64,000 nt of DNA from Flammulina velutipes (taxonomy: Eukaryota; Basidiomycota; Agaricomycetes; Agaricales; Physalacriaceae), in the NCBI GenBank assembly GCA_011800155.1, contig CM022377.1:992001-1056000 (forward strand). The letters run 5' to 3'. The position numbers and the translations under genes were made by a program. Under the pieces are notes generated by a model that did not search any database, had not been told where the DNA came from, and saw nothing but the letters and a program-made list of their open reading frames with translations. Positions 33,170-64,000 of this stretch are shown piece after piece (the first letter of the stretch is position 1; each line of letters starts with the position of its first letter).

Positions 33170-33556
33170 ATGTTTGGATTAAAAGCTTCTACTGTATGGA
33201 TCTCCTATTCACTCTATCCTCAGGCTCGCTGACCTTTGATCAGATTCTTTCTCTACTCGCGGTCTTCCACGCATCGAGCGCGATTCCTTTCGGTCAGCTC
33301 ACAAGCATGATGCCTCGCGACGTGGCCTACATCGGTGTCGATGAAGACCGCGGCGAGTACGTCACGTACAACCTCAACGGAACCACCTACGGACGTTATG
33401 CCATTGATTCAAAAGGCGAATCTTTGCACAAGTCCAAGCGCGCTGCGGGAAGATGCGCTAAACTTTCTATTGACGAACTTAAGACAAGTATGTGATTCAC
33501 TGGTCGTGTTATTCTCATCCTGACACATCGACCTCATTATAGTTCGGGCAGAGTGA
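33170..33556 (+). CDS. secreted-protein gene, 5' part, cut by the MULE insertion
   Basis: Exons 33170-33193 and 33244-33487 encode a classical signal peptide (MFGLKASTILSLLAVFHASS, then A) followed by about 65 residues ending in LSIDELKT. Homology continues not in the adjacent DNA but 29.6 kb away at 63087, where the next exon reads IPGWDALNQYADSAFGTG. The donor GTATGT at 33488 is intact. The acceptor copy that stayed here (AG at 33541-33542) would splice to 14 nt of transposon end, giving IRAE and a TGA at 33554-33556, so the predicted product is a truncated 93-residue secreted peptide. It contains a KR site (KSKR) that a Kex2-type protease could cut. The family is known to me only as a secreted basidiomycete protein of unknown function. 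Confidence 0.75.
33537..33545. repeat. 9-bp target site duplication, left copy
   Basis: TTATAGTTC here and at 63081-63089. The bases next to it differ on both sides (A before and G after here; C before and C after at the right), so it is exactly 9 bp. The TTATAG part is the splice acceptor of the secreted-protein gene. Confidence 0.88.
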
Positions 33557-33580
33557 TTGGGACCAAGTACCCGAACCAAC
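33546..33580 (+). repeat. MULE left terminal inverted repeat
   Basis: Aligned with the reverse complement of 63047-63080: the first two bases and positions 4-5 agree, positions 11-21 (ATTGGGACCAA) are identical in both, then CCCGAA-CCAA with small indels. This is weak outside the central 11 bases, as is common for MULEs with diverged ends. Confidence 0.7.
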
Positions 33581-33710
33581 TCCAAAAACCAATACCAAGA
33601 CCAATACCGTACCAATACCGTACCAATACCGTACCAATACCATACCAATATTGCACCAACCCCGTACCAACCCCGTACCAACCTCATAGCTGAGAACCAA
33701 GTACCGTGAG
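33566..33710 (+). repeat. left subterminal ACCAATACCGT array
   Basis: About a dozen short tandem or near-tandem units of CCAATACCGTA/CCAACCCCGTA, following GGGACCAAGTACCCG. The same vocabulary (ACCAACCC, GGACCAAGT) makes up the arrays at the right end of the MULE. Likely subterminal transposase-binding repeats (inference). Confidence 0.7.
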
Positions 33711-34365
33711 TCGCCTGGGAATTTCTAGTAGTCGCCACTGACTGACCGTTCAAATCAGCGACTGGGCTAGCCCTGTCGCTGATTGCGACCGCACAGCCAC
33801 CCTATCCAGATAGTCGTTCACCAAAGCTTTAATCATTCACCAACTTTGGGGCTAAGCCACATCCTTCAATAGTTAGCTTCCATTATTGATAAGATTTTAC
33901 GAATTTTGGCTATTTATGTAGTTGATGCAGCGCCGGGAAAGGACGCACCAACGACACAATCTTTCACGCTATCTCCGGCATACGGCCCGATACTCCTCCT
34001 GTTGATCTCAACGTTCATCATCATCGTTCTTCGTCGTCGCCGTCAACGAAGGACCACGACCACAGCACGTCCAGTACATGCCGCTCCGACTCACTACTAC
34101 TACATATTCTTGTACTAGGATGCAACAATGAAGACCTTTCACCTCTCACTTTTTTGCTCCCTTCCGCACATTGCAAATTTGGCTGTCATGTAGGACACTC
34201 CAAGTATCTTCTATTTTCCTTCCTTCGGTCTTGTTTCATAACTCACTTCTGCCTTTGAAATGCTTGAGCGCATTGTGAGTTTCATAGATCGTCGCATTCT
34301 AAGTTACTGATTCTGTGTAGTCTCAAGCAATTGCTGTACTTAGTGGGCATGCAGCGGCAGCCCCT
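33711..34365. other. MULE leader / promoter region
   Basis: Between the left array and the transposon gene. A short frame at 33906-34118 contains one hydrophobic segment (PAYGPILLLLISTFIIIV) followed by Arg-rich residues; I do not consider it a proven gene. An optional extra 5' exon with ATG at 34263 could splice (GTGAGT...GTGTAG) into the main gene. Confidence 0.4.
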
Positions 34366-37300
34366 ATGACCCAAAATCCTCCACTCTCACATAGAAAGAA
34401 GAAGAAGAAAATGCAGGCCGTTGTGCAACCAATGAACCTCTCCTCAATATTTTCCTTCCGCTTTCCCTGGTTCTTCGCTCGAACCGGACCACCTCCTGCT
34501 GCAACAAAGGACAAAAGTCAACATCCATACTCTCGCAAAAGATCCCTTCATCCTGATCCTACATCTACAATGCGACCCTCCTCCTATTCTCAGAAAAAGG
34601 CCAAACACGCTAGGATAGCCCAAACCGAATCCGAATCTGAGCCAGAACCAAAGCATGGACATAGTGAGTCACATATCTTCCTAATCAACCTTATATCTAC
34701 TAACTGTTGGCTCTACAGCACGTCAACGGCGTCATCACTCTAGCGAATCATCATCCGTTGGACACCAGTCAAGCTCCCGGTCACAACGCTTCCCACCCCC
34801 CAAACCCTCAATCCGTGTTGCCTCTCCTCGAGGATCTGCACCGTCGTCGCCCCCATCAGAAACTGGAATAGCGTTACAGCAGGCTCTTGACGCAATTCCT
34901 CAAGGAGTCGCTATGGCGCCAAACTTCGGTAGACAAAGCTCTGCAGCTCACGAAAACCTGGTCTCATTTTCATCTCTCAAATGGATGACCGACGTGTCAG
35001 GTTCACCAGACGGCACCTTCTCCTTTGTCGTCACTCGTTCCGTCTATGAAGCACACCAAAAATTGAAGCTCGCCTATGCTGCCAAGAATCTAGGTCATGG
35101 CAAGCGAACGGGGAAGGAGAGTCTCACAGACGCGCGAAATGCTGATAGCGAGGAGAAGGGACTTCGCACCTGGTTTGAATGTCTTGGTGCATTCGAATGC
35201 AATAATGAGGACTGTGCCAACGTGGTGCGTGGGAGTGCGAAGGGTAGAGTTGTTGCAGAGCGGATGCGCACACTGTGCCGCTGTAATCAGCCTATGCAGC
35301 ACTATGAATGCAACACGAGTTGGGGGACAATCGAATGGCGGTACGGGGTTCGGTTCTGGCACTTGGGTGAACATTCCCATTCGTCAATCCCAGTTGACGC
35401 AACTATATCCGCAAAGACTCGGAAGGCTATGAACGACCTAATAGAGGCGAATCCCACTGCAACGCCAGCTGCACTCCGGGCAGGAAACACGACGAGTGGC
35501 ATTGGACTCATCGATGTCAATATCAAGGCCGCTAGTGCTGGTTATTCACGACATCTAGTACGCACTGCACGAGGCGGAGTAAAATCCGAAAAAAACCCAG
35601 ACCAATGGCTCGACGACTACACACAATTCGGCCTTGACTATCCCACCCAGATCATTGCTGAGAGCCTTCGTGGTGGGGTGCAGATCATCTCCATTCAGAC
35701 AAGCTTCATGGCGCAGATGCTGGTGCAAGGTCACTTTCCAGAGGCCGAGGGACATTACGTGCTGCAGGGCTTTCTTTCCGATGCGGCGCATGGCTGGTTC
35801 GCGCAAGCACATCATCATCTCATCACAACTTCTGTGTTCTGCTGGGCGTTGCAGAAATGGGTTCCAACGATTTACTCATATGTGAATGGTGCCACTGAGT
35901 CGCATTTCGAGTACCATTTCTACGCCTGGATGAAGTCTACCAAAACTATGGCGGATGTCAAGAATGTAACACTTGACTATGAGTACTTTAGGATGGTACA
36001 GTTGCTCCAAATCTCTATATACTGCAGCTGATAACCTGTCCTGTTTTAGATGGTAGATTTCAGTCAAGCAGAACGTCTAGGATTTATTCAAGCATTCATT
36101 CGCTTTTGGTCGGAGATGTCGTCGAATGCGCATTCACCAACTCAGTTGGAGAAGATTGCATCAGAGCTTATCCTTGGGTGCCAGCAACACTTCCGAGAGT
36201 CTGTCAACCGGGTTGCGCCCGTCGTTGCAGCACGTGATTCAGATCGCACGAAAGAATTCAAGAGGAAAGTGAAGGAATTACTGGGGATATCTGACCATAC
36301 AATCTTCAAGGTAAAGTATCAGTCATCATCTCCATTGCTAACTACATCTAATGATCTATAGACACAAATCCAAGGACTATTGCTTGCATTTCCGAAAGCA
36401 AAACCGTGGTTGGAGTGGTGGCTGCGTCCTTCGCATATCCAGATGCTGTTTGTTCAGCTGCGCACTGACATACCTGTTAACATGCCATCAACGACGAATG
36501 CTCAGGAGTCAATGCATCACGCGATGTACGCCGAGGAAGGGAAGAAGCATACTGTCATTGAAGGTCTTCGACGATGCATTCGGTATGCAAATACTATGAG
36601 CCGAACATATGTGCAATACATTGGTAGGTTTTGTTAACACATGCCTGTATATATCGATGCTTATATGTCATTAGCTGGAGGTCGAATGGAATATGGGAAG
36701 AAGACATCATTGGCTCTCCGTAGAGAGCGTCAAGCAAAACACAAATCTACACAGCCCAGTCGTTACCGCCGCTTACAGAAGGTACGAAAGGCCTTCATAC
36801 GGGAACTACGCCTTGAGGAGCCGAAACGAAATCGTCGCCCTCTGGATAGAGCTAAGGACCTTTTGAAACCCAAGACGAGTAGGACAAGGAGGCGAGGGCA
36901 ACAGAAAACTGCAAAGTCAAGTTCAGGATCAGTTGATGATGGCTGGTCCACAGACACAGACACAGACAAAGTTGGTGTGGCGTTCAAGTCTCCGATAAAG
37001 ACCTCTCCTGCCAAAAAGTCCTGCATCAAGAAGTCACCCACAAAGAAGGAGCAAAAGACAACAGTTGACGACGATAAACGAGAGGTTGATATAGGGGCGA
37101 ACTCACCACCCAAAAAATCAACGGGAGCTCGAGCTGTTCGCTCAGCAGCACATCATGGACAGGGCACCCCAGACGGTGATGAGCAGTGCAAAAGAACACC
37201 ACCAAATCACACACACACACACACACACTAACAAGTAGGCGTGGAAATGCAAGTCCGCTTCGATAGCGGGTCTGCTTTTAATTGTTTAGAGTTCGATGAA

Positions 37301-40300
37301 CTGGTCTTTGGGGTTTCGGGAAGGTATGGGGGTTCGATCGCAACGGTTCAAAATGTATAACAAGTTCGAGGGGTAACAGGGATCTGATCTTTAGTTGAAA
37401 ACTAGAGGCCAACAAGAGTCACAGGCCGATTGGGATGCGTGAGGCAGACTTAATAAAGCTCCAACCGGTCCGTCAATCTTCAACCACGCTAAGAGGTCTG
37501 CGTCCAGATACCCTGGTATCTATCTAATGCCCTAAGACTCAACGGACTCTGTCCGCGGCTTAAAACGATAGCTTAGCTGCAGTCTAAACCACACTCAACG
37601 GGGACTGGGTTTTCCAATCAGATTCTTTCAAGTGGTTAGATGACTGTTCTGAGACAGCGCCGGGAACGTCGATGGCACAGGCAATGGCTAGACTTCAATT
37701 ACTCAAAGTAGCTCCAATGGCTCTAAGTTCCTTTTGCTTTCAGATTCAAAGTCACCTATGTGACAGAACTTCTATTCAATCCTATCGAGCTAACCGACGG
37801 TAAATACTGCTTTGTGGGCTGCGTCTACTGGGGGTCTAAGCTAGTTTACAGTATGCTAACGAGCGTATTATATAGGTATTTCTAAAGAGCGTGACTAAAG
37901 CTGGTTTACTGTATTTTACCCGCCACAGGAGCGGCCGCCACGTTGGCGGGCCCCGTGAACCTCGTTGTGCCCTGGGCCATATGGCCTTCATCATTCTTAG
38001 CCAGGTATTTGTCCTGGATGCACCCAATGAGGAGTGGCGTACCGCGCGGGTACACAGCTCCTGAGTGATCCAAGGTCAGCTGGCATGCTTGTTCCATGTG
38101 TATCTCTCCATTCTTAGGCGATCCGCGCGGGCCTTCAATTAGCACCCACATGGTCCCTGTTGCCTTGTGTTTTTCCTCTCTCGATAGAGAGGCCTTATTT
38201 CCAATAATGCCCCGCCCAGGAATCGGGCCCGTCGTGTTGGCGGCTCAACTCCTAGGTGGGTCCTACAGTGCTTCTGGTGCTTCCTATGCAGAGCCCGAAT
38301 GCTATCCAACAGAGGGACTTGGGTTTCTGTGCTCGATCTGGGAGATCTGCCCGATCTGGATTATATTGATGAGATCCAGGGAGTCAGAGCGTGACTCAGG
38401 AATAAGGTTTACTTCCCCTGAGATCATGACTCATGACGCAACATGCCTTTGATGGATTCGATGGTCGATCTCCGTCTTCTGCGTTTTGGTGGCTAAGTCC
38501 GTCCAAGTGTGGCGGGTGGTTCGTGAACTGTCCTGGGAAGAGTGGGATCCTTATTTCTAAGTTCCCGACACAATGGCGGGTGCAAGACTGAGTACTAGTT
38601 TTATTGATCGACCTAAGTCGAGTTACTTGTATTGTAGTTTTAGGTTCCTCCCGCTCCGAGAGCGGGGTCGATTGCCTGGCTGAACTAGTGCATGACTTCA
38701 AGGTTCCAAGGATGAGTCCCAGTAACAAGGACCTTCTCCGTACTGCTAGCCTGGTGTGGAGTGGTATATTCCGTCCATAATGCCTTCTTCCTATGTCCAT
38801 TCTGCCTGGTTTGCCTTGTACCAAATCGCAAAATATGGGGTCTTTGCCCATCCAAATATTACAAGGCGTATCATCTCCCCTTGACTTATTTGATGTCGTC
38901 CCCGACATCCTCTGCCTTCTACCTTTGGTAGAATACAGGGTCATCGTATAACTCCAGATTTGGATTCTACTTAGATCGACCCGATTCTGAAGCGGGCCCG
39001 ATCTGGTTATTCTAAGTCCTGGCTTTAAAAGCTGTTGTAGGCGCGCCGCTTTGTTGGCGCGTCCACTACAACTCTTATCCAACTTCTGTCTTTTCTGCAT
39101 AATGGCTCCTCCTAAAACCCCGCACTGGACTACTATTCACCCACTGCTGGCAGTCGATCCAGTGACCGTTGCGCCTGAGGTTACGCAGTTTCGTGCGGAG
39201 CTGGGACCCGCTATCTCTGAGTTCATCATGAACTACGCGGTCCCCACTCATGTCGAGGGTGTCATCAAGGACGCGATCGAACAACTTTCTGGACCGATTA
39301 TGGCCCTCGTTCGTTCGTCTAACACGCCGGGTATCGCTCTGGAAGCCCGCGTGGACTCTCTCGATCGCTTCTTTCCCAAGTTATTGGTGAGTGCCTTTAT
39401 TCTTCCATGTTCGTGCGTGTCTAACCCAAGTTAGGTTGTTAACCTATCTTTGGCTAATCGCACGACCGCTACCGCGACGGCTGAAATCCATTCATTCTTT
39501 CATAACGTTCGCAACTGGCTAGCTTGCTACCTGCTGGAGTTGGGGGTTAATCCTCAACTCCCGCGGATTAATCTTGCTGGCGTGTTCACGCCTCTTACGG
39601 CTGTCACTAGTCGACACACCGACTTCATAGCGCCTAAGTTGCCCGACTTTCACCCTTTGCACTTCAACCAGCGGTCCTTTAACTCGAAAGGAAAAGGACC
39701 CGCTAAGGAGGCGGCTCCAAAAGTCGATATCCCTAAGGATCCTCCTAAGGGCAAGCCCGCTGCTAAGAAGGTACGCTATTGTTTCCTGACTGTGTTTCTG
39801 GTTTCTAAGTCGTTTTCCCAGGGTGGAAAGACGGTTAAGTCGCCAGCGGTGATCGATGAGAAGTTGGAGGCCGTTGGGGAAGCGGCTATGCCTCCTCCTG
39901 AGGACTGTGGTAAGTTCCCCTTCTCCAACTTTCACAATCTGTGTTTTAACCCCGACGCCTTCTCTTTCGCTAAGATATGGACGACGGTCTGTCTGAATCC
40001 GATCTTGCTTCGGACGACGTGAGCTTATTTCACGATTTTTCTAGACTTGGACTCGTTGACAGTCCCCTTGCAGGATTTGTCCATTATCGACGGCAACGGT
40101 GTTACTGGTACCGACTTGGTTCCTCTCGAGGTAATGTCTTCGACTCGGGCTGATTGTTTACTTTGGGTGCTGACTTGTTCATAGTCGCCTCCCTCGGACT
40201 CGAAGCGCACGGTATTTTACCTTCCCTACGCGTTCGTCCCAGGTATGCTGACTTCTTCCCGGGAATACCAGAAGGCCTTAGACATTCTGGGTTCTTCCGT

Positions 40301-43300
40301 GAACTTCGTCGAACCTGCTCCCGCTGCTCATAAGCGCAAGGCTACTGCCGAGAACTCTAGTCGTCCCCGGAAGAGTCCTAAGCCTTCGTCTTTCCATATC
40401 GACCAGGCTTTCCTGGACCAGCTTGCTGGAGGTAAGCCTGTTGTCTTAGTTTCGATGTACACCCGCTAACTTGGCGGGTCCGCTTTGTTAGCGGGTCCTA
40501 TTATTCAGAGCTACGCCTCGTCGGTCGTTCGCGTGCTCAAGCAGGTTAATCGCCTTGCCGAGCTCGACGAGTTCCCTCGTGAGGCTAGTGCTTCACTTCT
40601 GTCGACGGAGCAGTCCTACCGCTTGGACTTGGTTCGGATCTTGAACCATGTCCACGGTGAGATCCAGGCTTTCAATCGTACCAAGGATCTGTATGTAGGC
40701 ACGGTGAAGTCCTTGCTAGACTAGTCTCCACTTCGATTTGGACATTCCGCTGTAGATCCCTCAATACTCTTTCCGTGATCTGTAGTTCGTTGGGCACGTC
40801 CCTGTTGCAGCTAGTTACTGTATTCCCTCTTTAGTTCATCATTCGCCTCGTAACTAGACTCTGAATTTGCAATATGTTTTGCCTCATGTCTCGCTGTGCC
40901 ACTAACTGAATCTACACGATAGAGTTCCTGTCCGCCATGTTGGCGGGGCCTAATTTTCGTCCTTGACCCGTTTTGATAGCGGGTGGTCAAGTCCCTGCGC
41001 ATATCCTGGTGGAAGGTCACTCGGTGGTGTCCATCCGCACCCTCTAGGTCGTTGTATTGGCAATACTACTCAGCGTAGCCGTGTGGTAAGGCCTTGCCTC
41101 ATTGCATTCGATGGCCGTTGCGGATCCGTTTGTTATTGCGGGGCCCGATAGTATAGCGGGCGCGCACCTTTATAAACTCGCAACGTCCTCTCGAATCCTT
41201 ATCCAACATGGAGCAGAATCTTGCGTTAATCCCTCCCTGGACCAACTTCAAGCTTGCTTTTCTCCCAGGCCTTTCTGACCGCTTTTCCCGTCAAGCCGTC
41301 GGTTTCTTAGAGGCTGAAGCGGGTCTAGCTGTGGCCTTGTCGATGTACCGCGCTACGTTTAGCTTCCCTATCGTAGCCACGCCTTTCGACGTCTTGGATC
41401 TTTCTTCCTTTCATACTTCCCCGACTGAGGACTTGTCCTTGGGTGTGAGCGAAATGCTCGACGCACCCACTTTGCGCTTCATGATTCAATGTTTGGTGAG
41501 TTTCGTCCTCTGTCCCCTGTTTTTCCTAGTTCTGACTTAGACATAGATTCGCTCGATGGCTATCTGGGAGATCGAAGATCCCGACCTCAAGACGGGTCAG
41601 GCCTACAACATTGCTTTGTTGTATGTCTGCTGCCTTCGTCTTGTTTCTAACTGGTTTGGGATGCGGCGGGGTTCCGTGGTACTCGACGGTCTTCACTTTG
41701 AAGACCTCATCCCCGCCCGCTTCCGTCATCCCGAGCGGTATTTTGCTAAGATGATGGAAGAGGCATTGGGTGACTTTGCCGTACGTTTAGTTCACCCGCT
41801 TTCCAGTCGGAGGTCTAATGTATCCTTGTCAGACGTCCGTTCTCCTTGGTTTTCACCTTGGGGCTGAGGACTCTTTGGGAGGGATCGTTGCCAACTACGA
41901 TGTAGTGAACAACTTGCCCCTTCCCTTGGGTCAATTGTCCCCCGTCGACCAGGCGCTTGTCCTTTGGTGGCCCCGCTTCTTAGCGGTTAATCGATTCCCT
42001 CGTTTCTGCGATACTCGTCCTATCATGTACGAACGCGTTATCACAACGGGTCTCGCTGCTCACTTGGACTTCGCTCCCGTGTTAGCCTCGGATCGTGACT
42101 TCGACGAAACTACCAATCCCATTGCTCCTTCAGCTTCTGTTCCACCTCCTCACACCGTCGCTTGGATGGGTAATCCAGTCGCTGTGGAGGTGGCCCAGTC
42201 TGTCTTGACTGATCCCGCTATGGTAGCGGCCGCTCCCGTTTCGGGACCCGCTATCGAAGCGGAGAGTCAAGCTCCACCTTCTATGGTCTTTGTTGGTGCC
42301 TTTAGCTTTTTCTCGAGCCATCCTTTGTTTGCTGATGACTTGGTATTGATTGCAGAAACATTTTAACAAGTGCGGCGAGCGTATGTGCTTTTGCGCTCCC
42401 CTCGAGTATCCTGATGAGGCCTGCGTCGAGTACTGGGGTGTTCCCGACTTTCTCTAACTTCTTTTGTGACTTATTTGTTTCTTGTTTCCAATGCCCTAGT
42501 CATAGCGGCGCTTTTGAATAGCTATTTTTGTTCTTCTATATTTCTCTAAGTCCAATTTTTCCACTTAGATCCTATTTACTTCTTCGTTTGCGGGCGTCTC
42601 CCCTTGACTTATATGGTTCGACGTCCCGCCTATCTCTTATAGTTTTACTAGTTCACTCAATGCATTTGTTGAATGAACCACTTAGAGTCCGAAGACCCGA
42701 CCCGCTATCGGGTCGGGTGCCAATTCCTTGTGTGGCGCAGCCTATTTTCTTGCCTTTCTCATGCTTTCTTGGATGTCCGACGACTTGGCGGCGATTCGCA
42801 CTCTTAGTCTTGTTTCTTTCCAAGTTTGCACAAGCCATGTATTTGTATATATGTTGCTCTATATAATATTTTTGCCCGAAGGCCCAAAGAAAGAGTTGAC
42901 CCCGTCATCCAAAGAACACTACCGTACGTACACAGTCCATACTCTGTCGTACTAAGTCCCGTGAATGCATAAAACGTCTAGTTCGTTGTATTAGAGTCCA
43001 ATGGACTTGGGCCTGCCCAAGTCCTTACCTCTCCTTGCCTTTTCCTTTTCCTTTCCCCTTCTTCTCAGCGGGGGCCTTTGCCTTTCCTTTCCCTTTCGGG
43101 TCGTCCATTTCTTCGTCCTCGTCGTCCTCGTCGTCCTCGTAGTCGTGGTTCCCGCGCTCCAACTTGCGCAGGATTTCCGACGTATCCCCTCCGGTCAGAA
43201 TGATCGAGAGCGCCGCCTCGAGGTTGGGAATGACGGCTTCTGACAGCCTGACGGTTTCTTCGAGGGTTGTCAACCTCGCCTTCAACGTCGCCACCTCCTT

Positions 43301-55300: not shown

Positions 55301-58300
55301 GCTTGGCTTTTGGGGCTATTTTGGATTGGGTGTAGAAATAACTTGTTAACTCTTGTTTTACGAAGAATCGACTAAGTCAAATTTATCACCCCTCGCGGTG
55401 GGCTCCAAAATATGATGAGCAGTGCAAAAGAACACCACCAAATCACACACACACACACACACTAACAAGTAGGCGTGGAAATGCAAGTCCGCTTCGATAG
55501 CGGGTCTGCTTTTAATTGTTTAGAGTTCGATGAACTGGTCTTTGGGGTTTCGGGAAGGTATGGGGGTTCGATTGCAACGGTTCAAAATGTATAACAAGTT
55601 CGAGGGGTAACAGGGATCTGATCTTTAGTTGAAAACTAGAGGCCAACAAGAGTCACAGGCCGATTGGGATGCGTGAGGCAGACTTAATAAAGCTCCAACC
55701 GGTCCGTCAATCTTCAACCACGCTAAGAGGTCTGCGTCCAGATACCCTGGTATCTATCTAATGCCCTAAGACTCAACGGACTCTGTCCGCGGCTTAAAAC
55801 GATAGCTTAGCTGCAGTCTAAACCACACTCAACGGGGACTGGGTTTTCCAATCAGATTCTTTCAAGTGGTTAGATGACTGTTCTGAGACAGCGCCGGGAA
55901 CGTCGATGGCACAGGCAATGGCTAGACTTCAATTACTCAAAGTAGCTCCAATGGCTCTAAGTTCCTTTTGCTTTCAGATTCAAAGTCACCTATGTGACAG
56001 AACTTCTATTCAATCCTATCGAGCTAACCGACGGTAAATACTGCTTTGTGGGCTGCGTCTACTGGGGGTCTAAGCTAGTTTACAGTATGCTAACGAGCGT
56101 ATTATATAGGTATTTCTAAAGAGCGTGACTAAAGCTGGTTTACTGTATTTTACCCGCCACAGGAGCGGCCGCCACGTTGGCGGGCCCCGTGAACCTCGTT
56201 GTGCCCTGGGCCATATGGCCTTCATCATTCTTAGCCAGGTATTTGTCCTGGATGCACCCAATGAGGAGTGGCGTACCGCGCGGGTACACAGCTCCTGAGT
56301 GATCCAAGGTCAGCTGGCATGCTTGTTCCATGTGTATCTCTCCATTCTTAGGCGATCCGCGCGGGCCTTCAATTAGCACCCACATGGTCCCTGTTGCCTT
56401 GTGTTTTTCCTCTCTCGATAGAGAGGCCTTATTTCCAATAATGCCCCGCCCAGGAATCGGGCCCGTCGTGTTGGCGGCTCAACTCCTAGGTGGGTCCTAC
56501 AGTGCTTCTGGTGCTTCCTATGCAGAGCCCGAATGCTATCCAACAGAGGGACTTGGGTTTCTGTGCTCGATCTGGGAGATCTGCCCGATCTGGATTATAT
56601 TGATGAGATCCAGGGAGTCAGAGCGTGACTCAGGAATAAGGTTTACTTCCCCTGAGATCATGACTCATGACGCAACATGCCTTTGATGGATTCGATGGTC
56701 GATCTCCGTCTTCTGCGTTTTGGTGGCTAAGTCCGTCCAAGTGTGGCGGGTGGTTCGTGAACTGTCCTGGGAAGAGTGGGATCCTTATTTCTAAGTTCCC
56801 GACACAATGGCGGGTGCAAGACTGAGTACTAGTTTTATTGATCGACCTAAGTCGAGTTACTTGTATTGTAGTTTTAGGTTCCTCCTGCTCCGAGAGCGGG
56901 GTCGATTGCCTGGCTGAACTAGTGCATGACTTCAAGGTTCCAAGGATGAGTCCCAGTAACAAGGACCTTCTCCGTACTGCTAGCCTGGTGTGGAGTGGTA
57001 TATTCCGTCCATAATGCCTTCTTCCTATGTCCATTCTGCCTGGTTTGCCTTGTACCAAATCGCAAAATATGGGGTCTTTGCCCATCCAAATATTACAAGG
57101 CGTATCAACGGTATTACAGCTCCCCGAGTAGAGGTCCATCGGGTGGGAGCTGATATCGTCAAACCTACATTCTATCTGAAGGATGCCACTGGTGGCGCAA
57201 GAGCATTGGTTATTCCCGGAACCTTTGTCAAGCTTCTGGGATATAGATGGCAGGATAACTCTTGCTGGATTGATACCCTCCTAGAGATGCTCTTCTGGAC
57301 ACTTGTACGCGACTGGACACCAATTCAATCCATCTACTCAACTTCGAGCCTCGCCGATGTTCCACTCTTTCCGATTTTGATACATATCAAACACAGATTG
57401 GAGTTAACTATGGAGAGCAAGGACTGGGACGAGACCCAGAAAGTGATTAGCGCGAGCCGCCAGACTATCCGCCAGTTTATCTCTGGTCACGAAGCTTGGG
57501 TCAGCCCTCATGGGTACCAGAGTATGAACAGTAACGAAGCATTCTGGCGATGGTTTTCATTTGCTGCTGCGTGGACACCAGAGACCTTTCTTCGCAGTGA
57601 ACCACATCCAACTCAAGCCTTTATTGACACAGTCTCCACATTTGGACTCCAGGTTCTCAAATATCGCGCCTGCACAGGAGCGGATCTCTCTCTTCTTAGC
57701 ACTCGTCTTATTGCACACTCGAGGATTGGCCTTGTTCAGTCTATCTCTACTCTGAGTCTGGAGCCACATGCGTTTGATATGTATCACGGAAATATCGAAA
57801 CATTCCTTCAGCAGCGTTATACTCAGACAAATGGACTTCCCCGTCATCAAAGACCGTGTTGGCGCCGTGCAAAGTGCCCAGCACTTGCCGATGACTATGA
57901 GCTATGTGTTCATCTCCCTCTAGTCCTTTGTATGGAGGCATATGTGGAACCATCAGGTGCTACTCTTGCATGGTTTGCTCCTGGCGAGCTCCATCCTGTG
58001 TCTGATGCAGCAGGTCGTGAAAATCATCTGATATATGACCTTGTCGCACGGATATTTATGAAGCCTGGAGGTCCTGGGGGTGGTGATGTTGGGCATTTCA
58101 TCGGTCGGTTTGTTGCGCTACGTTGATGAGCAGTGCAAAAGAACACCACCAAATCACACACACACACACACACTAACAAGTAGGCGTGGAAATGCAAGTC
58201 CGCTTCGATAGCGGGTCTGCTTTTAATTGTTTAGAGTTCGATGAACTGGTCTTTGGGGTTTCGGGAAGGTATGGGGGTTCGATCGCAACGGTTCAAAATG

Positions 58301-61300
58301 TATAACAAGTTCGAGGGGTAACAGGGATCTGATCTTTAGTTGAAAACTAGAGGCCAACAAGAGTCACAGGCCGATTGGGATGCGTGAGGCAGACTTAATA
58401 AAGCTCCAACCGGTCCGTCAATCTTCAACCACGCTAAGAGGTCTGCGTCCAGATACCCTGGTATCTATCTAATGCCCTAAGACTCAACGGACTCTGTCCG
58501 CGGCTTAAAACGATAGCTTAGCTGCAGTCTAAACCACACTCAACGGGGACTGGGTTTTCCAATCAGATTCTTTCAAGTGGTTAGATGACTGTTCTGAGAC
58601 AGTGCCGGGAACGTCGATGGCACAGGCAATGGCTAGACTTCAATTACTCAAAGTAGCTCCAATGGCTCTAAGTTCCTTTTGCTTTCAGATTCAAAGTCAC
58701 CTATGTGACAGAACTTCTATTCAATCCTATCGAGCTAACCGACGGTAAATACTGCTTTGTGGGCTGCGTCTACTGGGGGTCTAAGCTAGTTTACAGTATG
58801 CTAACGAGCGTATTATATAGGTATTTCTAAAGAGCGTGACTAAAGCTGGTTTACTGTATTTTACCCGCCACAGGAGCGGCCGCCACGTTGGCGGGCCCCG
58901 TGAACCTCGTTGTGCCCTGGGCCATATGGCCTTCATCATTCTTAGCCAGGTATTTGTCCTGGATGCACCCAATGAGGAGTGGCGTACCGCGCGGGTACAC
59001 AGCTCCTGAGTGATCCAAGGTCAGCTGGCATGCTTGTTCCATGTGTATCTCTCCATTCTTAGGCGATCCGCGCGGGCCTTCAATTAGCACCCACATGGTC
59101 CCTGTTGCCTTGTGTTTTTCCTCTCTCGATAGAGAGGCCTTATTTCCAATAATGCCCCGCCCAGGAATCGGGCCCGTCGTGTTGGCGGCTCAACTCCTAG
59201 GTGGGTCCTACAGTGCTTCTGGTGCTTCCTATGCAGAGCCCGAATGCTATCCAACAGAGGGACTTGGGTTTCTGTGCTCGATCTGGGAGATCTGCCCGAT
59301 CTGGATTATATTGATGAGATCCAGGGAGTCAGAGCGTGACTCAGGAATAAGGTTTACTTCCCCTGAGATCATGACTCATGACGCAACATGCCTTTGATGG
59401 ATTCGATGGTCGATCTCCGTCTTCTGCGTTTTGGTGGCTAAGTCCGTCCAAGTGTGGCGGGTGGTTCGTGAACTGTCCTGGGAAGAGTGGGATCCTTATT
59501 TCTAAGTTCCCGACACAATGGCGGGTGCAAGACTGAGTACTAGTTTTATTGATCGACCTAAGTCGAGTTACTTGTATTGTAGTTTTAGGTTCCTCCCGCT
59601 CCGAGAGCGGGGTCGATTGCCTGGCTGAACTAGTGCATGACTTCAAGGTTCCAAGGATGAGTCCCAGTAACAAGGACCTTCTCCGTACTGCTAGCCTGGT
59701 GTGGAGTGGTATATTCCGTCCATAATGCCTTCTTCCTATGTCCATTCTGCCTGGTTTGCCTTGTACCAAATCGCAAAATATGGGGTCTTTGCCCATCCAA
59801 ATATTACAAGGCGTATCAACGTGACACAGAGACAAACGCTCCCTCAATCTTTGAATATGATGGATATGGACGGGAGGGCATGAGTTATAGGGTAGGACAT
59901 GGGATAAAGAAGTGGATAGCAGGTTATGATTCACAGCTCAAGCTTCCAGCTGGATATGCCACGATTGGCCTCATGTACCGACTTCGTGGAGGTGGCACTG
60001 CACAAAACTGGTATTCTGATAGGCAGCGTCAGCGCCTTGCTACAGAGCTCTCTATCAATCTGGCACCTGGCTCTCCTTTAACTGCTGAACGCTCAATCGA
60101 TTCTAGCAGAAACAATCTCTTTCCTGTCAATCCTCATTCTATGTCTTGGCTTTCAGAGAATGAGCAGGTGCAGCGTCAAAACCAACTATTCCCCATCCTC
60201 GAATATGAACATCGTGATAGTATCATAACTCCTCCCTCATCCAAATCTCAAGCCACCTCTTCTATCCCTACTCAAGCTCTCGATGATGTTGATGACTTTG
60301 TCGACGAAGCTATTACAGCCAGTCTGCAGGACGGAACCAAGTCTCGTGCCCCCCCTTCTGAGTCGTCACTTTCAACTCTCTCCCGGTCTGTCTCTCAATC
60401 TTCAATCGACTCGGACAAAGCACTTGATTTCCGCTGCTGGTGTGGTATCAATGGCAGTGGCCATCATTTCCGCCACATTGAATCTCTGATTCAATGTGAT
60501 AAGTGCAAATATTGGTGTCATCTGGCGTGTTATCCTTCAGATTCTGCTCTATTACCTGGTGAAGACTTTAGCTGTCATCTCTGTGATGATCATTATCCCC
60601 TACTTCGAGTGCAAGGCTTCAGAAAAAAGGTGGCGCATCCGGCAAAATTGTATGTTTCAATATATTCGCTTCAAGTCATTTGACTAACTTTTCTTTAGCG
60701 CTAATAAGGCATGTTATCAGAAGGATATGCATGAGCGACTGAGGTAACGTACAAAACTTCAGTTCTATATGATATTAATTCCTTGCTAGAGTGGGAATAG
60801 CTGTGTTTGTCAGAGATGGCTTGTTTTGGTATCCAGCTCGGATTCTCTCCGATGTTGCTAATAATGAATGCACTATCCGGTGGTGGCACTCAAACCAGCC
60901 TGCTGGAAAAGTAGGCTTAGCAAATCATACACCCGGCGCCACAGCCCGTGTGAAGACTGTGAGGATTGTTGATCATCTCTGGCGTGATAAAGTTGGAAGA
61001 AGGTCTATTCGTGTAAGCAAGCATTCTTTAACTGTGTAGTATCATCTTACTTACAGAGATCTGCTTATTTTAGCTTGGCAAATGGATCACTGCAACGAGC
61101 CTTCGTCTCAAGAAGGAGACCGGACCCGATCCATCTGAATCACTTCCCTTCACTCCAAAAATTGATAGTGCTCTGACTCCTCATCAGGATGAGATTAGAA
61201 CCTTGATACTTGGAGTTGATTCAGATACACTCAGTCACCAGACATATCCGGTCCTAGCCTGGAAGGCAGCAAACAGCAAGCTTCACAAGGGAGTTGTTCC

Positions 61301-61900
61301 TCTTACAGGCAAACTTGAAGACGACATCTCCTCTCAAATTATCAATTGGATTTACCACAAGGTGGCTAAAGATCTTAAAGGAACAACTGGAAGCAAAAAT
61401 CGTTGGGTGTACAATGGAGGACTGCAGCATGGTCTCATGATCTGGATAGCAGAGCAGAATGGAGGTAACCGGACCTTGGCTTGGAAGCAGCTTGTCCATG
61501 ATGTGAGACCAGTTCACGCTGATATCGATATGATGATAGTTTCAATACTGGAGGACCACATGTTCGACATGCGCAAAATAGCAGGACCGGCCGGGAACAT
61601 GCAATGGGGACTAGATGTCGGCATTCTTCAAGAGACTTGGTCCCCTTATGAGTTGGGATCAGAGCGTCGCGTACTTCCTATAGGAAAATTCGAAGAGGAA
61701 ACATCTGTATGTCATTCATTGATTATCATGCTCTTTACTCAAGGTAATATCAGCCTACCTATCGGCCGGATGCTTATGAACGTTGGTGGAATAGAGAGTT
61801 AGCACAGCAGGCAAAGAGAGAGGAGAAAGAAAAGCGTATTGCAGATGCAACACTGCGATCAAAGATTCAAAAGCGAAGACTCAAAGAGAAGAATGTATGA
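34366..61900 (+). CDS. MULE-encoded multidomain protein (transposase, protease, PHD), interrupted by two LTR insertions
   Basis: Exons: 34366-34663, 34719-35995, 36050-36310, 36362-36623, 36675-37176, 57112-58123, 59823-60649, 60699-60743, 60790-61012, 61074-61706 and 61754-61900, total 5,487 nt (1,828 residues) once both LTR insertions and their 4-bp duplications are skipped. Order of domains: a GCM-like zinc finger (FECNNEDC, LCRCNQPM, GEHSHS); an RNase-H-like core with acidic residues in LSDAAHGWF, MVDFSQAERLGF and NAQESMHH; a basic Lys/Ser tail; a papain/USP-like module with Cys box DNSCWIDTLLEML (57254-57290) and His box GHFIGRFVALR...FEYDG, split by the solo LTR; a PHD finger (CWCGIN, CDKCKYWCHLAC, FSCHLC); and a Tudor/PWWP-like segment (DGLFWYPARILS). 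It probably catalyses its own transposition; the protease and PHD parts may act on chromatin or SUMO/ubiquitin pathways (inference). At present it is inactivated. Confidence 0.75.
37177..38873 (-). repeat. LTR (3' LTR of the minus-strand retrotransposon)
   Basis: 1,697 bp, plus-strand form TGATGAGC...GCGTATCA (TG...CA ends). Contains a (CA)n run near 37210-37230. Differs from 55413-57107 by C/T near 37339, C/T near 38650 and one CA dinucleotide. Open frames inside (such as 38096-38452) recur in all three LTRs and are not genes. Confidence 0.93.
38874..39101. promoter_or_regulatory. polypurine tract and promoter of the first accessory gene
   Basis: The minus strand reads CAAGGGGAGA directly before the 3' LTR (plus-strand 38874-38883), a polypurine tract for plus-strand DNA priming. 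The rest is the upstream region of the gene starting at 39102, with CTTTAAAAG near 39023 as a possible TATA-like element and a GCGCGCC hairpin at 39040-39062. Confidence 0.65.
39102..40724 (+). CDS. retrotransposon accessory gene 1 (antisense to pol), unknown
   Basis: Seven exons: 39102-39386, 39435-39770, 39822-39909, 39975-40018, 40074-40130, 40185-40431 and 40492-40724; 429 residues, in frame. No family recognised. N-terminus MAPPKTPHWTTIHPLLAVDP; the middle is rich in Lys/Pro (KGKGPAKEAAPKVDIPKDPP) and then acidic; the end contains helical SYASSVVRVLKQVNRLAELDEF. The last intron is largely made of the element's dispersed GC hairpin (ACCCGCTAACTTGGCGGGT) and its acceptor (TTGTTAG) sits inside a second copy. 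It is transcribed opposite to gag-pol and has its own promoter, so it is an extra gene rather than part of the polyprotein. Confidence 0.65.
40725..41207. promoter_or_regulatory. spacer with promoter of accessory gene 2
   Basis: TATAAA at 41171-41176, about 32 bp before the ATG at 41208, is the clearest TATA box in the window. Three copies of the GC hairpin motif occur (about 40931-40950, 40966-40985 and 41135-41160). No gene. Confidence 0.55.
41208..42457 (+). CDS. retrotransposon accessory gene 2 (antisense to pol), unknown
   Basis: Four exons: 41208-41495, 41547-41780, 41833-42285 and 42356-42457; 358 residues. Start MEQNLALIPPWTNFKLAFLP; the product looks globular and hydrophobic (IRSMAIWEIEDPDLKTGQAY, LGFHLGAEDSLGGIVANYDV), and ends with a Cys-rich tail (CGERMCFCAPLEYPDEAC). 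The last exon is found only if the GTCTTT donor at 42286 is used; reading on would end at 42366. No known family. TATA box 32 bp upstream. Same strand as accessory gene 1, so the pair may be one transcription unit of element-specific functions such as a Gag-like or Env-like accessory role; that is speculation. Confidence 0.65.
42458..43024. other. spacer between convergent accessory genes
   Basis: Intergenic. Holds a perfect GC palindrome, CCCGACCCGCTATCGGGTCGGG (split as CCCGACCCG and CGGGTCGGG around CTAT), at about 42697-42718, which could form a strong hairpin at the shared 3' ends. Confidence 0.5.
43025..47820 (-). CDS. retrotransposon accessory gene 3: Zn2Cys6-type, coiled-coil protein, split by a fold-back element
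   Basis: Coding segments 47820-46826, 44011-43816 and 43762-43025 add to 642 residues when the fold-back insertion (44019-46825, plus one duplicate of its 7-bp target) is skipped and a 53-bp intron removed. The reading frame crosses the insertion point cleanly (KKRKLGRPV before, QGDSPKKRTWGP after). The first 300 residues are Pro/Ser/Thr-rich and acidic. Near the C-terminus the cysteines follow C-x2-C-x6-C-x8-C-x2-C-x6-C (CRGCFKKGIRC, then CVECAYTKKGC), the exact spacing of fungal zinc binuclear clusters, with basic residues after the second Cys. A heptad-type coiled coil follows (VEELEKEVATLKARLTTLEE), then Lys/Gly-rich end. I infer a nuclear DNA-binding regulator, perhaps of the element or its integration. 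Now disrupted; the intact left part would end at CYTDN. Confidence 0.7.
44012..44018. repeat. target site duplication of the fold-back element, left
   Basis: ACAGGCC here and at 46826-46832. If the terminal G of the right end is counted with the target, it becomes GACAGGCC (8 bp). Removing the element plus one copy rejoins the coding frame of accessory gene 3. Confidence 0.85.
44019..46825. mobile_element. fold-back element (2.8 kb palindrome)
   Basis: Left arm 44019-45244 and right arm 45600-46825 are near-identical inverted copies of about 1,226 bp, exactly equal in length, around a 355-bp unique centre. Termini CACCCTATGC...GCATAGGGTG. The arms are full of G-rich (left) and C-rich (right) runs near the ends, such as GATGGGGGATGGGGG. 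No credible coding sequence: mirrored small frames appear on both sides but are only reflections of one another. A 7-8 bp target duplication proves mobility. By duplication length a hAT-like or other 8-bp superfamily donor transposase is possible (inference). Confidence 0.9.
47821..48332. other. spacer between pol and accessory gene 3
   Basis: Promoter side of accessory gene 3 (minus) and 3' side of pol. Contains two adjacent GC hairpin copies at about 48190-48235 and an AT-rich zone at 48250-48280. No gene recognised. Confidence 0.45.
48333..51719 (-). CDS. pol: Gypsy-type pol: reverse transcriptase, RNase H, integrase
   Basis: About 1,128 residues on the minus strand. RT: WFCVVKKDGKKLRLVHSLEP, then FSTPYGALRLKTLPMGWTNS and the catalytic YIDDV (variant of YxDD). 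RNase H: VILSVDTSYMAVGFYLSQED, later LMACKYYLLG and EVDAKYI. Integrase: zinc module HDKHGHKGQFSVRKLVGKRF with CVLCQ, catalytic core with VDTFRMP, TDNGPAIKK and NGKVERGHW (D, D, E), and a GPY-type C-terminus (KERFMGPYAVISRTTAGNYV). No chromodomain seen. The frame is continuous upstream into the segment ending at 51720 except for one TAG (51720-51722, between LATKK and KPVALKVK), so either stop read-through or a nonsense mutation joins it to the preceding ORF. Confidence 0.92.
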   Translation of the reverse strand, partial: KPVALKVKPHLGTLPEEFRIICNIVGDPLEGMLELNPNPPSFTPTGRYTEERREQVQRDHVGDFLWPQERNLIDDLMCKQNQGFAWEETEKGRFREDFFPPVDMPVIPHVPWVLKNIKIPPGIFNEVCAIIKNKLDSGVYEPSNSSYRSRWFCVVKKDGKKLRLVHSLEPLNAVTIAHSGLPPATEELAEAFAGRACGGTLDLYVGYDERHLSEKSRDMTTFSTPYGALRLKTLPMGWTNSVPIFHEDVTHILKDEIPTYTRPYIDDVPVRGPATRYQDKEGNFETIPENPGIRRFVWEHMVNMNRIIQRMKYSGGTFSGHKAIICANETVVVGHTCCYEGRKPAEDRVKVISDWLPCECLRDVRSFLGTAGVFRTFVKDYSKKALAMTRLTRDGVPFVWGEEEQASMDALKRALETSPMLKPLNYDWPTPVILSVDTSYMAVGFYLSQEDPEDPKKRYFAKFLSITLDEREARYSQSKRELFGLHRALMACKYYLLGCRKLKIEVDAKYIKGMLSNIDSLTNGNLQRWAEEILMFHFTLVHVPGKVHGPDGLSRRVASPNDVIIPSPPGDEYEEELSTFEYEEPANLAEEDKPLPFEDFKDNIDTRTGYLFEVSKPEENQEDLVEETPTEVEEEYRVTQLAAMAVEDLEKWVAIDEFPELERSAREQLWETLLPHVEPYLKDENYTPAILADRQLQTLRDFSDKEFFIAGDKLYKKNAEGKHRRVLLLGKRLPVVQVIHDKHGHKGQFSVRKLVGKRFWWPGMDTDINWFVKTCVLCQKRQKMKIHKEPTITPTPGIYETAFVDTFRMPTSGGTGARKKYSGYNAVTVARCGLTGWPEARALINENAETLGDWIFEDILCRWGCIKQIVTDNGPAIKKAMVHIEAKYGVKGILITPYNKQANGKVERGHWDIRQSLFKVCKGHPEEWPAFLHEVLWAERITVKRTLGHSPFYAVTGCEPVLPLDIEEATWLVDIPDTLISHSDLIAYRATQLIKHKEDVKKMKQRVTEAKKRAAERFMDEHKNRIPKYKFKTGELVLVRNTRIEDELNSKFKERFMGPYAVISRTTAGNYVLCELDGSILKDKIAQFRVIPFYSRKDPKQLGDVFFKRLHRIRDSVGRVLDLVNKTT
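51720..52193 (-). CDS. linker ORF between protease and RT
   Basis: 157 residues (MIDDQGEVALVVGQAENGEI...ESIPRQVLATKK) in the same frame as pol, separated from it by a single TAG. It overlaps the end of the protease frame by 4 bases in another frame, so the element needs a frameshift or re-initiation here. No known domain; many Gypsy elements have such a linker. Confidence 0.7.
   Translation of the reverse strand: MIDDQGEVALVVGQAENGEIQIERTFVPEKSRQTFDSQALTSLYLSQSSDGVNKAAKALRNGFRYGTASGMSASDHPPGSRVLLPQVRLDSDWTLEEVEQYQPVTVNLFDSVPRGLEKILQNLTVSIPQKELTLSQQAYLDSRKRESIPRQVLATKK
52190..52738 (-). CDS. retroviral-type aspartic protease ORF
   Basis: Contains the catalytic LLDSGSQIVSMSLKAALELG (D-S-G) and the flap-to-end pattern EVLLGRPFDVVSS, matching pepsin-like retrotransposon proteases that cut Gag-Pol. 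The frame opens upstream without ATG and differs from the neighbouring upstream ORF (52741-53259), so it is expressed by frameshifting or as part of a decayed polyprotein. Confidence 0.82.
   Translation of the reverse strand: MHDLVEQLFNHTGYTGPYQMPRTNVASESADLRTLWPTIGGAGKKESLLDSGSQIVSMSLKAALELGVPFDPSFSITMESADKGQTKTVGLARNLAFDFGGIVYFLQVHIIRDPAYEVLLGRPFDVVSSINTSVLRDGGVVATITDPSNGKRLTLPTYKRGQMPRYQQQPGTGPVFPEHSRN
52741..53489 (-). CDS. gag-pro transframe ORF, unknown acidic domain
   Basis: Continuous open frame on the minus strand overlapping the end of gag by about 40 nt (a typical -1 or +1 frameshift overlap at about 53451-53489) and ending at 52741. Rich in Glu/Pro (KEPELSDLLEEVLEGPEPAI) and includes a tract with VIPNIPNIPK. 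No domain recognised; it separates gag from the protease. Confidence 0.6.
53451..54869 (-). CDS. gag: Gag with zinc knuckle, one in-frame TGA
   Basis: The frame is open from about 55289 down to 53451 except for a single TGA at 54648-54650 (between NGSTQ and TVTNPQ). The first plausible ATG is at 54869 (MADQENNNAGGNAG); upstream codons are open but lack ATG. The part after the TGA has a capsid-like helical region (FRREVVHKLQYLIDIGDVTQ, LDLVQQCFVGPAWAAIYNDL), a coiled stretch and one CCHC knuckle (CYFCDEHGHFLTEC). Gag forms the particle around the RNA. Whether the TGA is read through or is a dead mutation is undecided. Confidence 0.8.
55391..55407 (-). promoter_or_regulatory. primer binding site
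   Basis: The minus strand reads TGGAGCCCACCGCGAGG starting 5 bases inside the 5' LTR (LTR ends at 55413). TGG is the complement of the CCA tail of a tRNA, so first-strand synthesis should be primed here. The tRNA species is not identified. Confidence 0.65.
55413..57107 (-). repeat. LTR (5' LTR of the minus-strand retrotransposon)
   Basis: 1,695 bp, TGATGAGC...GCGTATCA on the plus strand. Near-identical to 37177-38873 and 58124-59818. Carries a copy of the GC hairpin motif (CCGCTTCGATAGCGG) near its plus-strand start. Confidence 0.93.
57108..57111. repeat. 4-bp target duplication ACGG (right copy)
   Basis: Matches 37173-37176. Together with the LTR ends TG...CA it proves one insertion event into the MULE gene. 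Confidence 0.85.
58124..59818 (-). repeat. solo LTR of the same retrotransposon family
   Basis: 1,695 bp, flanked by ACGT at 58120-58123 and 59819-59822. There is no internal sequence, so a full element inserted and was then reduced by LTR-LTR recombination. It differs from the 37177 LTR by about one substitution (T for C near 58603) and one CA unit. It splits the His box of the MULE protease module; skipping it plus one ACGT restores FVALRDTETNAP in frame. Confidence 0.92.
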
Positions 61901-61966
61901 TTTAGATATAATTACAAGAGGTCGTAACATTGTTATAAAGATATTGAACCGAATGTCTATCAGCGG

Positions 61967-62375
61967 GACCAACCCGGAGACCAAGCATCCATTGGCAGGA
62001 CCAACCCAGATACCAAGTAGCAGGTATTGGGGCCGATCCGGAAACCAAGCATCGGTAAGCAAGACCAACCCGGGGACCAAGCATGCATTAGCGAAACCAA
62101 CCCGGGGACCAAGTATGTGTTAGCGAAACCAATCCGGGGACCAAGCATGCGTTAGCGAAACCAACCCGGGGACCAAGTATCCGTCAGTGAAACCAACCCG
62201 GGGACCAAGTATCCGTCAGCGACGCCAACCCAGGACCAAGTATCCGTCAGCGACACCAACCTTGGGACCAAGTAACCATCAGCAAAACCAACTCGCAGAC
62301 CAAGTTTCTGTCAGCAAAACCAACCCCGGGACTAAGTGTTCATTGGCGAGACCAACCTAACAACCAAGTATCTGT
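61967..62375 (+). repeat. 32-bp minisatellite, right subterminal array of the MULE
   Basis: About 12 tandem units of 32 bp with consensus ACCAACCCGGGGACCAAGTATCCGTCAGCGAA (quoted here as ACCAACCCGGGGACCAAG plus a variable half). Units degenerate toward the right. No spacers, so it is not CRISPR. It begins 67 bp after the stop codon of the MULE gene. Sequence words are shared with the left-end array and with 62985-63066. Confidence 0.85.
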
Positions 62376-63046
62376 CAGCACACCGAGTATCCGGTGAAAG
62401 GAACCAACCCAACTCCCTGATGAACAAGTATCTGATAGCTACCAGAATACAGCCGCCGCATATGGCTACTGCTATCAGCCTGCAAATAGTATTAGCAAGA
62501 TGTCTTGGGGAAACAAGGCGCAAGCACTAGGCAGCCATCATGTTCAGGTCACGTTGTTGGAGGTAGGCTCAAGGTCGGCCCTCCAATATCAACAACAGCG
62601 CCACCTGAGCACAATAGCTGTTCATGTTGGTTTAAGAGAGTAGACATACCTCTATTCATGAATATGGCAATGATAGGCGGTGGGCGGAACTGAGCAGATG
62701 CGAGAGAACTGCACTACGCGCATTGGGAACGACGGCGGTAAGGCAAGACCAAAACTGAGCAAGTGGAAGCACAAGTTGTACTACCAGCTGTAAGCGCATT
62801 GGAGACGACGACCACGGCGACAGACATGAGGCAAAACCAACGGAAACGAACTGCGCTGACAGTAAGGACAAGAAGCTTTTGGTTCATGGTTGATCCAAGA
62901 TGAAGTAAGCACCTCGTGTTGATCCTTCCCACACCATCCTGGTCTGGAACAACGATTCGTATATCACTACTCACCTCAAGTACTAAGTATTGGTGCAGAC
63001 CAAGCTGGGACCAAGTGGAACCAACCCGGAACCAACCCGGACCAAG
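62376..63046. other. MULE right subterminal region
   Basis: No gene. Another short group of GGACCAAG and ACCAACCCGG words at 62985-63046 leads into the right inverted repeat. Confidence 0.5.
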
Positions 63047-63080
63047 CTTGGTTTCGGGGTTGGTCCCAATGTACATGTCC
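63047..63080 (-). repeat. MULE right terminal inverted repeat
   Basis: Reverse complement shares ATTGGGACCAA and CCCGAAACCAA with the left end at the same distance (10 bases) from the target duplication. Confidence 0.7.
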
Positions 63081-63089
63081 TTATAGTTC
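63081..63089. repeat. 9-bp target site duplication, right copy
   Basis: TTATAGTTC, identical to 33537-33545. Contains the AG acceptor in front of the resumed host exon at 63087. Confidence 0.88.
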
Positions 63090-64000
63090 CTGGATGGGAT
63101 GCCCTAAACCAGTATGCCGACAGTGCTTTCGGCACAGGCAAGCGCGAGGTCGTAACGAACCCCCAGGCGGTACGCCCAACGTTTCTGTTCTTGTTTTCAT
63201 ACACAGATGCTCATGGTTCTATCTCAGTATCTTGATCGCCCCGCACACGCGTGCATTACCGACGAGGTTGTCCACCTTGATTTCCACGGCGAGTGCCACA
63301 TCCATTACTAGATATCAATGTAGATCTCATTCGTATTTCAATGCTAACAGAGGAACCGATCTGCCAAGAGCACACCAGCAGTGTGTCAGGCATTCTCATA
63401 GGTACGGAGGGTGAGGTCACCATTGAGGTCGAGCAAGGCTTCAATACTGCTACCTCCTACACCGTCACCCGTAAGTCCTGGTACCCCTTATCTTTTGATT
63501 GACATCTTAAATCGATTCCAATTAGGTTCCTCTACCATTGGCGTCTCGTCTACCCTCAGTGCCTACATCGGTGTACCAGACGTTGCAGGGGGCGGCGCAG
63601 AGTTGACGGTCAGCACTGAAATCACTGATGAGGTGTCTTCAACGTATGCTACTCACTATCTCTTCCCCGTTCAACTTGCTAATTAGATCACTTCAGTTTT
63701 GAGGTCTCCTACAACGATGTCAGCAGGGTCTCACTGACTCTCACCGCTGATGAAGGAAAGAAGTGCACAGCTGAGGTAGGAATCACTTTCTTTCACCAGC
63801 TGGGCATGCATGTTGATAGATCTATGATAGACAACCGTAAAGACATGCAACAGGCAAGCAACTGGAAAAGTCCGCTACCTCGCGACTGGCTGGGTGTGGT
63901 TCAACTACCACGCACGTACCGGTGGTGACGGTGGCCACTACCACTGGTGCGCCAGGATCGAAGATGTTCTCACCAACGAAGATGATCGCTCCAGTTTCGC
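63087..64000 (+). CDS. secreted-protein gene, 3' part (severed by the MULE, continues beyond the window)
   Basis: Exons of the gene that starts at 33170: 63087-63169 (PGWDALNQYADSAFGTGKRE), 63228 to about 63289 (YLDRPAHACITDEVVHLDF), about 63352-63470, 63525-63649, 63699-63777 and 63831 onward, the last running off the window with VLTNEDDRSSF. All junctions are GT-AG except the one near 63289, which fits only a GC donor (GCGAGT) or has decayed. The protein is Thr/Ser/Val-rich, predicted beta-rich (STIGVSSTLSAYIGVPDV, ELTVSTEITDEVSS) with a few cysteines and the conserved LATGWVWFNYHARTGG near the end. Without its promoter and signal peptide this part should be silent. Function unknown to me. 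Confidence 0.7.

Follow-up and report, generated by a model that had tools for sequence, protein, structure and literature searches.

Nested transposable elements split one of two tandem genes for secreted, predicted aerolysin-like proteins in Flammulina velutipes

A 64,000-nucleotide stretch of the Flammulina velutipes genome (assembly GCA_011800155.1, contig CM022377.1, positions 992,001 to 1,056,000 of the forward strand; hereafter the window, numbered from its first letter) contains a gene for a secreted protein with a predicted aerolysin-like fold, the two halves of which lie on either side of a 29,535-bp insert (33546-63080). Our analysis points strongly to a recent, nested transposon insertion and to the ordinary inactivation of one tandem duplicate. 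A cut-and-paste, Mutator-like transposon of a type with a GCM domain inserted at the border of intron 2 and exon 3 of one tandem gene, where nine bases that hold the 3′ splice site, TTATAGTTC, are duplicated, presumably by repair of the staggered cut; such repair is the general source of target-site duplications in elements of this kind. Later insertions into the transposon brought a Gypsy-type long terminal repeat (LTR) retroelement and a second copy of it that is now a solo LTR. If the gene is transcribed, intron 2 would be removed as before, translation would stop after 93 residues, and the pore-forming-type domain would not be made; the gene is most likely inactivated. The locus offers a clean example of a toxin-like mushroom tandem duplicate broken by a transposon with an undamaged sister nearby as a control; the layers of nesting give the order of events, the insertion exposes a transposase family that a general domain library fails to recognise as a whole, and the duplicated splice site is a neat coincidence that carries a prediction testable on RNA.

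The insert is bounded by two perfect copies of TTATAGTTC on the plus strand (33537-33545 and 63081-63089), as a preliminary description of the window had stated; on that strand of the window the nine bases occur at the two borders only, and on the minus strand once, at 11495. The genome searched comprises 38.1 Mb in 23 contigs, and the window belongs to contig C10. Apart from its own locus, the left flank matched once, in a tandem relative (L016) that shares contig and strand with it; the right flank matched its own locus, L016, and three weaker places on C3 and C12. This paralogue, 19 kb farther downstream, runs through the insertion site without a break and has a single TTATAGTTC. Its alignment with the left flank (75% DNA identity) reaches 33545, its alignment with the right flank (82%) starts at 63081, and the two overlap by 9 bp. 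On C3 the element has a second copy, which aligns with the window starting exactly at 33546 and finishing exactly at 63080, and bases 63000-63080 of the window are found again on C3 at 100% identity, terminating exactly at 63080. Because this copy shares both ends and the flanks meet on the paralogue at a 9-bp overlap, the boundaries are more than chance. The size and bounds of the 29.5-kb insertion stand as first described, but its description as one event does not: the insert is a stack of four nested elements, and a single insertion is ruled out by the C3 copy, which is 6,359 bp long and lacks the retroelement.

All exons of the split gene lie on the plus strand. Exon 1 (33170-33193, with a counterpart in exon 1 of the paralogue) opens with the start codon at 33170, and exon 2 (33244-33487) encodes the remainder of the signal peptide, a pre-domain, a dibasic KR, and the first residues beyond it. 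Intron 2 (33488-33542, 55 nt) has the donor GTATGT at 33488, a branch-point match CTGAC at 33520, and the acceptor TAG. The 3′ exons follow the insert at 63087-63169, 63228-63288, 63351-63470, 63526-63643, 63697-63775, and 63831-64061, the last extending beyond the window end (64000). The paralogue is uninterrupted, with 314 codons in eight exons and seven introns of 51-62 nt (a nine-exon, 312-residue model was dropped because it contained an impossible 17-nt intron near its end), and its protein aligns with P0001, an intact homologue, ungapped over 306 residues at 61% identity. The proposal that the two halves are one gene joined in phase is borne out by the paralogue, in which the exon 2/exon 3 junction is identical and the intron has the same position and phase as intron 2; two more relatives, on C3 and C12, have by eye an intron at the same place (acceptors TTAG and ACAG). 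Continuity of homologues across the junction, a check suggested with that proposal, was seen in 19 of the 19 aligned, which belong to 47 database matches to the paralogue protein; this search and alignment used the 312-residue model, in which about 12 residues near position 243 are incorrect, whereas the structure model described below is of P0001 and so unaffected. The 20 best protein matches are 54-63% identical, and the 19 of them that are named come from Armillaria, Desarmillaria, Guyanagaster, Cylindrobasidium, Hymenopellis, and Mucidula, genera of the Physalacriaceae. Between the split gene and its paralogue, synonymous divergence (dS) is 0.32 in exon 2, with a ratio of nonsynonymous to synonymous divergence (dN/dS) of 0.105 (79 codons), and 0.55 in exons 3-7 plus most of the last exon, with dN/dS of 0.16 (216 codons). 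The comparison leaves out exon 1 and the eight codons with which the last exon begins, and its values mostly record time preceding the insertion.

The structure model of P0001 shows an elongated, aerolysin-like beta fold, with residues 72-312 spanned by at least a fifth of the structural matches, and the genes are accordingly described here as encoding secreted proteins with a predicted aerolysin-like fold. The dibasic site is conserved among the 19 aligned homologues. A Pfam scan of the corrected paralogue protein gave no match at E ≤ 10. Aerolysin/ETX pore-forming proteins of mushrooms include Coprinopsis CC1G_11805, which is tabulated without a signal peptide (PMC4082614). The proteins encoded here resemble this group in predicted fold class and in their occurrence in mushroom-forming fungi; they differ in being secreted, in having a pre-domain and a conserved dibasic site, and in lacking a Pfam match. 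A shared fold proves no function, and pore formation or toxicity is a candidate role only.

As the preliminary description noted, the target duplication covers the splice acceptor, with the AG at 33541-33542 inside the 5′ copy of TTATAGTTC. The donor at 33488 does keep a nearby acceptor as claimed, at a distance that needed correction (the intron is 55 nt long). Splicing of intron 2 is expected to be unaffected because the donor, the CTGAC match, and the acceptor all lie upstream of the insert. The truncated frame described earlier is present: it ends ...LKTIRAE and stops inside the transposon end at a TGA (33554-33556, plus strand), giving 93 residues that comprise the signal peptide, the pre-domain, and 19 residues beyond the dibasic KR. 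Such a product would lack the modelled aerolysin-like domain, little of which is encoded. The idea of an exon trap, or of any special preservation of splicing, was not upheld, since any insertion just downstream of the acceptor leaves intron 2 intact. At the far border, no branch-point match (CT[AG]A[CT]) occurs within the 50 nt of element preceding the 3′ acceptor copy, so a transposon transcript would seem poorly placed to trap the exons beyond it, although six donor-like sites, possibly chance matches, lie within 61801-63080. The AG of one of the seven paralogue acceptors is contained in 56 of about 1,331 nine-base windows (~4%; seven acceptors times eight windows, unadjusted for target preference or for the choice of one striking case), so coincidence is not far-fetched. 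The duplication of the acceptor is most likely a coincidence of cut position and not a device.

Without the elements nested in it, the DNA transposon measures 7,901 bp and lies on the plus strand in three parts: a left part (33546-37176) with the left end GGGCAGAGTGATTGGGACCAA, a middle part (57112-58123) with an open frame that carries an SCWxD motif, and a right part (59823-63080) with the right end TTGGTCCCAATGTACATGTCC and 32-bp tandem repeats. The two ends agree at 16 of their first 25 bases and share an 11-bp identical core, ATTGGGACCAA; when their outermost 60 bp are aligned locally, the best match extends over bases 11-34. The transposase gene (34366-37176, plus strand) has five predicted exons (34366-34663, 34719-35995, 36050-36310, 36362-36623, and 36675-37176) and is interrupted by the LTR element. 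Scanned in pieces, the window transposase gave no Pfam match above cut-off and no GCM match; a PHD-finger match at about 60480-60584 is below cut-off (E 0.00087). The SCWxD motif is reminiscent of ubiquitin-type cysteine peptidases; the frame at 57112-58123 has no Pfam match at E ≤ 5 and one solved-structure match at E 0.48, and a peptidase identity is not claimed for it. The 32-bp tandem-repeat array occupies 61959-62379, in the right subterminal part.

The second transposon copy (C3:1904274-1910632; L013 1474-7832) is flanked on both sides by a 10-bp duplication of its own, ATGTTGGTGG. It differs from the window copy by 10 mismatches in 6,364 columns (2/3,643, 8/2,613, and 0/108) and three gap openings, and the right part differs in length between the two (2,613 versus 2,580 bases aligned). 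These two loci are the only transposase matches in the genome, identical over residues 100-866 of the predicted protein and 97% identical over its residues 1-102. About 1.6 kb of the window transposon (within 57216-60500) is missing from the C3 copy; this gap is read as a deletion there, since the SCWxD and PHD parts are found in some relatives. With it the C3 copy apparently lost the SCWxD part and the beginning of the PHD finger. One of the sequences flanking this copy encodes a stretch that resembles, by eye, the end of a membrane transporter.

Relatives of the transposase were found in other mushroom-forming fungi. A first search returned at least seven, in Suillus, Mycena, Trametes, and Lentinula (among the best 7,996 candidates scored), and a profile search at least 95 (among the best 7,982 scored), for 97 proteins together; domain and triad counts cover 30 of these. 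GCM (PF03615) was matched at E ≤ 1 in 14 of the 30 (best E 1.3e-5) and PHD, at the same threshold, also in 14. A profile of the 30 matches the structure of the mouse GCM1 DNA-binding domain (1odh, E 3.9e-7) as well as many PHD-containing chains. In the relatives the GCM-type domain stands ahead of the transposase core, the arrangement that marks the GCM/WRKY-GCM1-type group. A candidate DDE triad, assigned by motif, falls at residues 381, 455, and 590 of the relative P0048, with 73 and 134 residues between; D381 is present in all 30, D455 in 27 (one gap, two other letters), and E590 in 25 (five gaps). The contexts in the relatives are SDAAHG, DFSEAER, and TTNAEEAMH, and the window element carries all three, as SDAAHGWF, DFSQAER, and TTNAQESMHH. 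The AlphaFold model of P0048, built from 7 sequences, was too poor for a fold search (predicted local distance difference test score, pLDDT, 39.2).

Fungal transposases of the Mutator-like elements (MULEs) can carry WRKY-GCM1 fingers. The element resembles MULEs further in its insertion in a gene, its candidate DDE-like triad, the GCM-type zinc domain of its family, and the length of its target duplications, which are 9 bp in the window and 10 bp on C3 (two of the two copies found). MULEs are characterised by target duplications of 8-10 bp and inverted repeats of over 100 bp (PMC5225508). The ends here, in contrast, match imperfectly over about 34 bp, the family carries a PHD finger, and the Pfam MULE model is matched by none of the 30 relatives. 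Because of the short, imperfect ends and the missing Pfam MULE match, we call the element Mutator-like and not a proven member of the superfamily. It is conceivable, though doubtful, that these proteins represent a transposon family of mushroom-forming fungi that unites GCM, a DDE-type core, and PHD in one gene, lies beyond the Pfam MULE model, and has its insertions directed by the PHD finger to where chromatin is marked, at the 5′ ends of active genes; if such steering occurs, the present insertion, which lies 367 bp downstream of a start codon, would be a case of it. Among the titles listed from open-licence literature, none concerns this insertion or a GCM/PHD transposon family in basidiomycetes, which does not prove that no such paper exists. 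The only PF10551 match found in the genome (C3:117853-118098, L055) belongs to a different transposase.

Within the transposon lies a 19.9-kb Gypsy-type LTR retroelement (37177-57107, minus strand) with the target duplication ACGG (37173-37176 and 57108-57111). Its LTRs (37177-38873 and 55413-57107, both minus strand) are 99.8% identical. A pol-like open frame (48336-51719, minus strand) has RT_RNaseH_2 and RT_RNaseH (residues 400-534) and Integrase_H2C2 (732-782) above cut-off and RVT_1 (189-326) below it; a gag-like frame (53454-54647, minus strand) has a CCHC zinc-knuckle match just below cut-off. Two LTRs, a short target duplication, and the order reverse transcriptase-RNase H-integrase identify it as Ty3/Gypsy, and the C3 transposon copy shows its unoccupied site, CAGACGGTATTAC. 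A solo LTR of the same family (58124-59818) has the target duplication ACGT (58120-58123 and 59819-59822), and self-comparison of the insert shows the three 1.7-kb repeats (37177-38873, 55413-57107, and 58124-59818) to be 99.8% identical. The apparent internal deletion of the C3 transposon copy means that it offers no empty site for the solo LTR. The nesting gives the order gene, then DNA transposon, then retroelements, and the two transposon copies are nearly identical, as are the LTRs, which indicates recent activity.

The retroelement itself contains a foldback element, a near-perfect palindrome of 2.8 kb with 1.2-kb arms (44019-46824), between copies of the target duplication GACAGGCC (44011-44018 and 46825-46832). 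Its site is empty, with a single GACAGGCC, in the retroelement copy L053, and another copy, L054, carries the palindrome. The palindrome may have arrived with the retroelement, as L054 suggests, or later; the retroelement may be spreading the foldback element. At least 42 LTR matches, the window's included, occur in the genome (40 of 132 candidates scored), and seven same-strand LTR pairs, picked by eye, span 17.1-19.7 kb; an eighth pair, on C1, was dropped because its LTRs are on opposite strands. Between pol and the far LTR the window copy has about 6.6 kb, the palindrome excluded, and no above-cut-off Pfam match came from the three frames of at least 245 residues in this interval, one of which overlaps the LTR.

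Three other explanations were weighed against a nested insertion that inactivated the gene. In an exon trap or a selected truncation, the duplicated acceptor would keep the mRNA productive and the secreted peptide of 93 residues would be functional in itself. Nothing is damaged in the start codon, in intron 1, or in the three splicing signals of intron 2 (donor, branch-point match, and acceptor), and exon 2 has the dN/dS of 0.105 against the paralogue; that ratio chiefly reflects pre-insertion time, however, the peptide would hold only the signal peptide, the pre-domain, and 19 residues after KR, with the matched domain at about 72-312, and the ~4% share of acceptor-containing windows leaves coincidence plausible. 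We regard a selected peptide as improbable. A still functional gene from which splicing removes all 29.5 kb as one giant intron, between the donor at 33488 and the AG at 63085-63086, is scarcely credible: the acceptor copies are identical and the exons beyond the insert keep the paralogue's frame open, but the donor has a closer acceptor, 55 nt away and with a branch-point match, no such match precedes the 3′ copy within 50 nt, and a 29.6-kb intron is far out of the range of the paralogue's seven (51-62 nt).

An assembly artefact, in which repeats were collapsed or misjoined between two gene copies, might be suspected of an insert made largely of repeats in a genome with so many LTR matches. 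Target duplications are nonetheless present at every level (TTATAGTTC, ACGG, ACGT, and GACAGGCC), the element ends equal those of an independent copy, and both flanks match a single paralogue that is continuous; duplications, ends, and flank matches of this kind would not arise from a misjoin, and an artefact is very unlikely. Several points weigh against inactivation by a Mutator-like transposon as we reconstruct it. The empty site is a paralogue and not an allele. The downstream exons remain open in the paralogue's frame with dN/dS of 0.16, so sequence decay gives no proof of lost function. After exon 4 the donor (63289-63290) is GC, against GT in the paralogue; this may mark a GC-AG intron that is tolerated, or the first sign of decay. 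TM-scores of the structural matches behind the predicted fold are low (0.11-0.44 by query, among the 50 matches listed); proteins that are elongated and flexible are expected to score so, but the matches are not strong evidence alone. Finally, a Pfam MULE (PF10551) match at E ≤ 1 was found in none of the 30 transposase relatives, which leaves the superfamily label unproven.

The nested insertion invites comparison with introners, in which splice sites are supplied by the target duplication (PMC9860276). A target duplication supplies a splice site here too. The element differs from introners in that it adjoins an existing intron and extends to 29.5 kb with its nested elements, that the stop lies in the element end and removal by splicing would not be expected from the layout, and that the genome contains just two copies of its transposase. 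In the last intron of the gene pair (63776-63830; L016 3557-3611), the second half is near-identical between the paralogues and exceeds the neighbouring exons in conservation.

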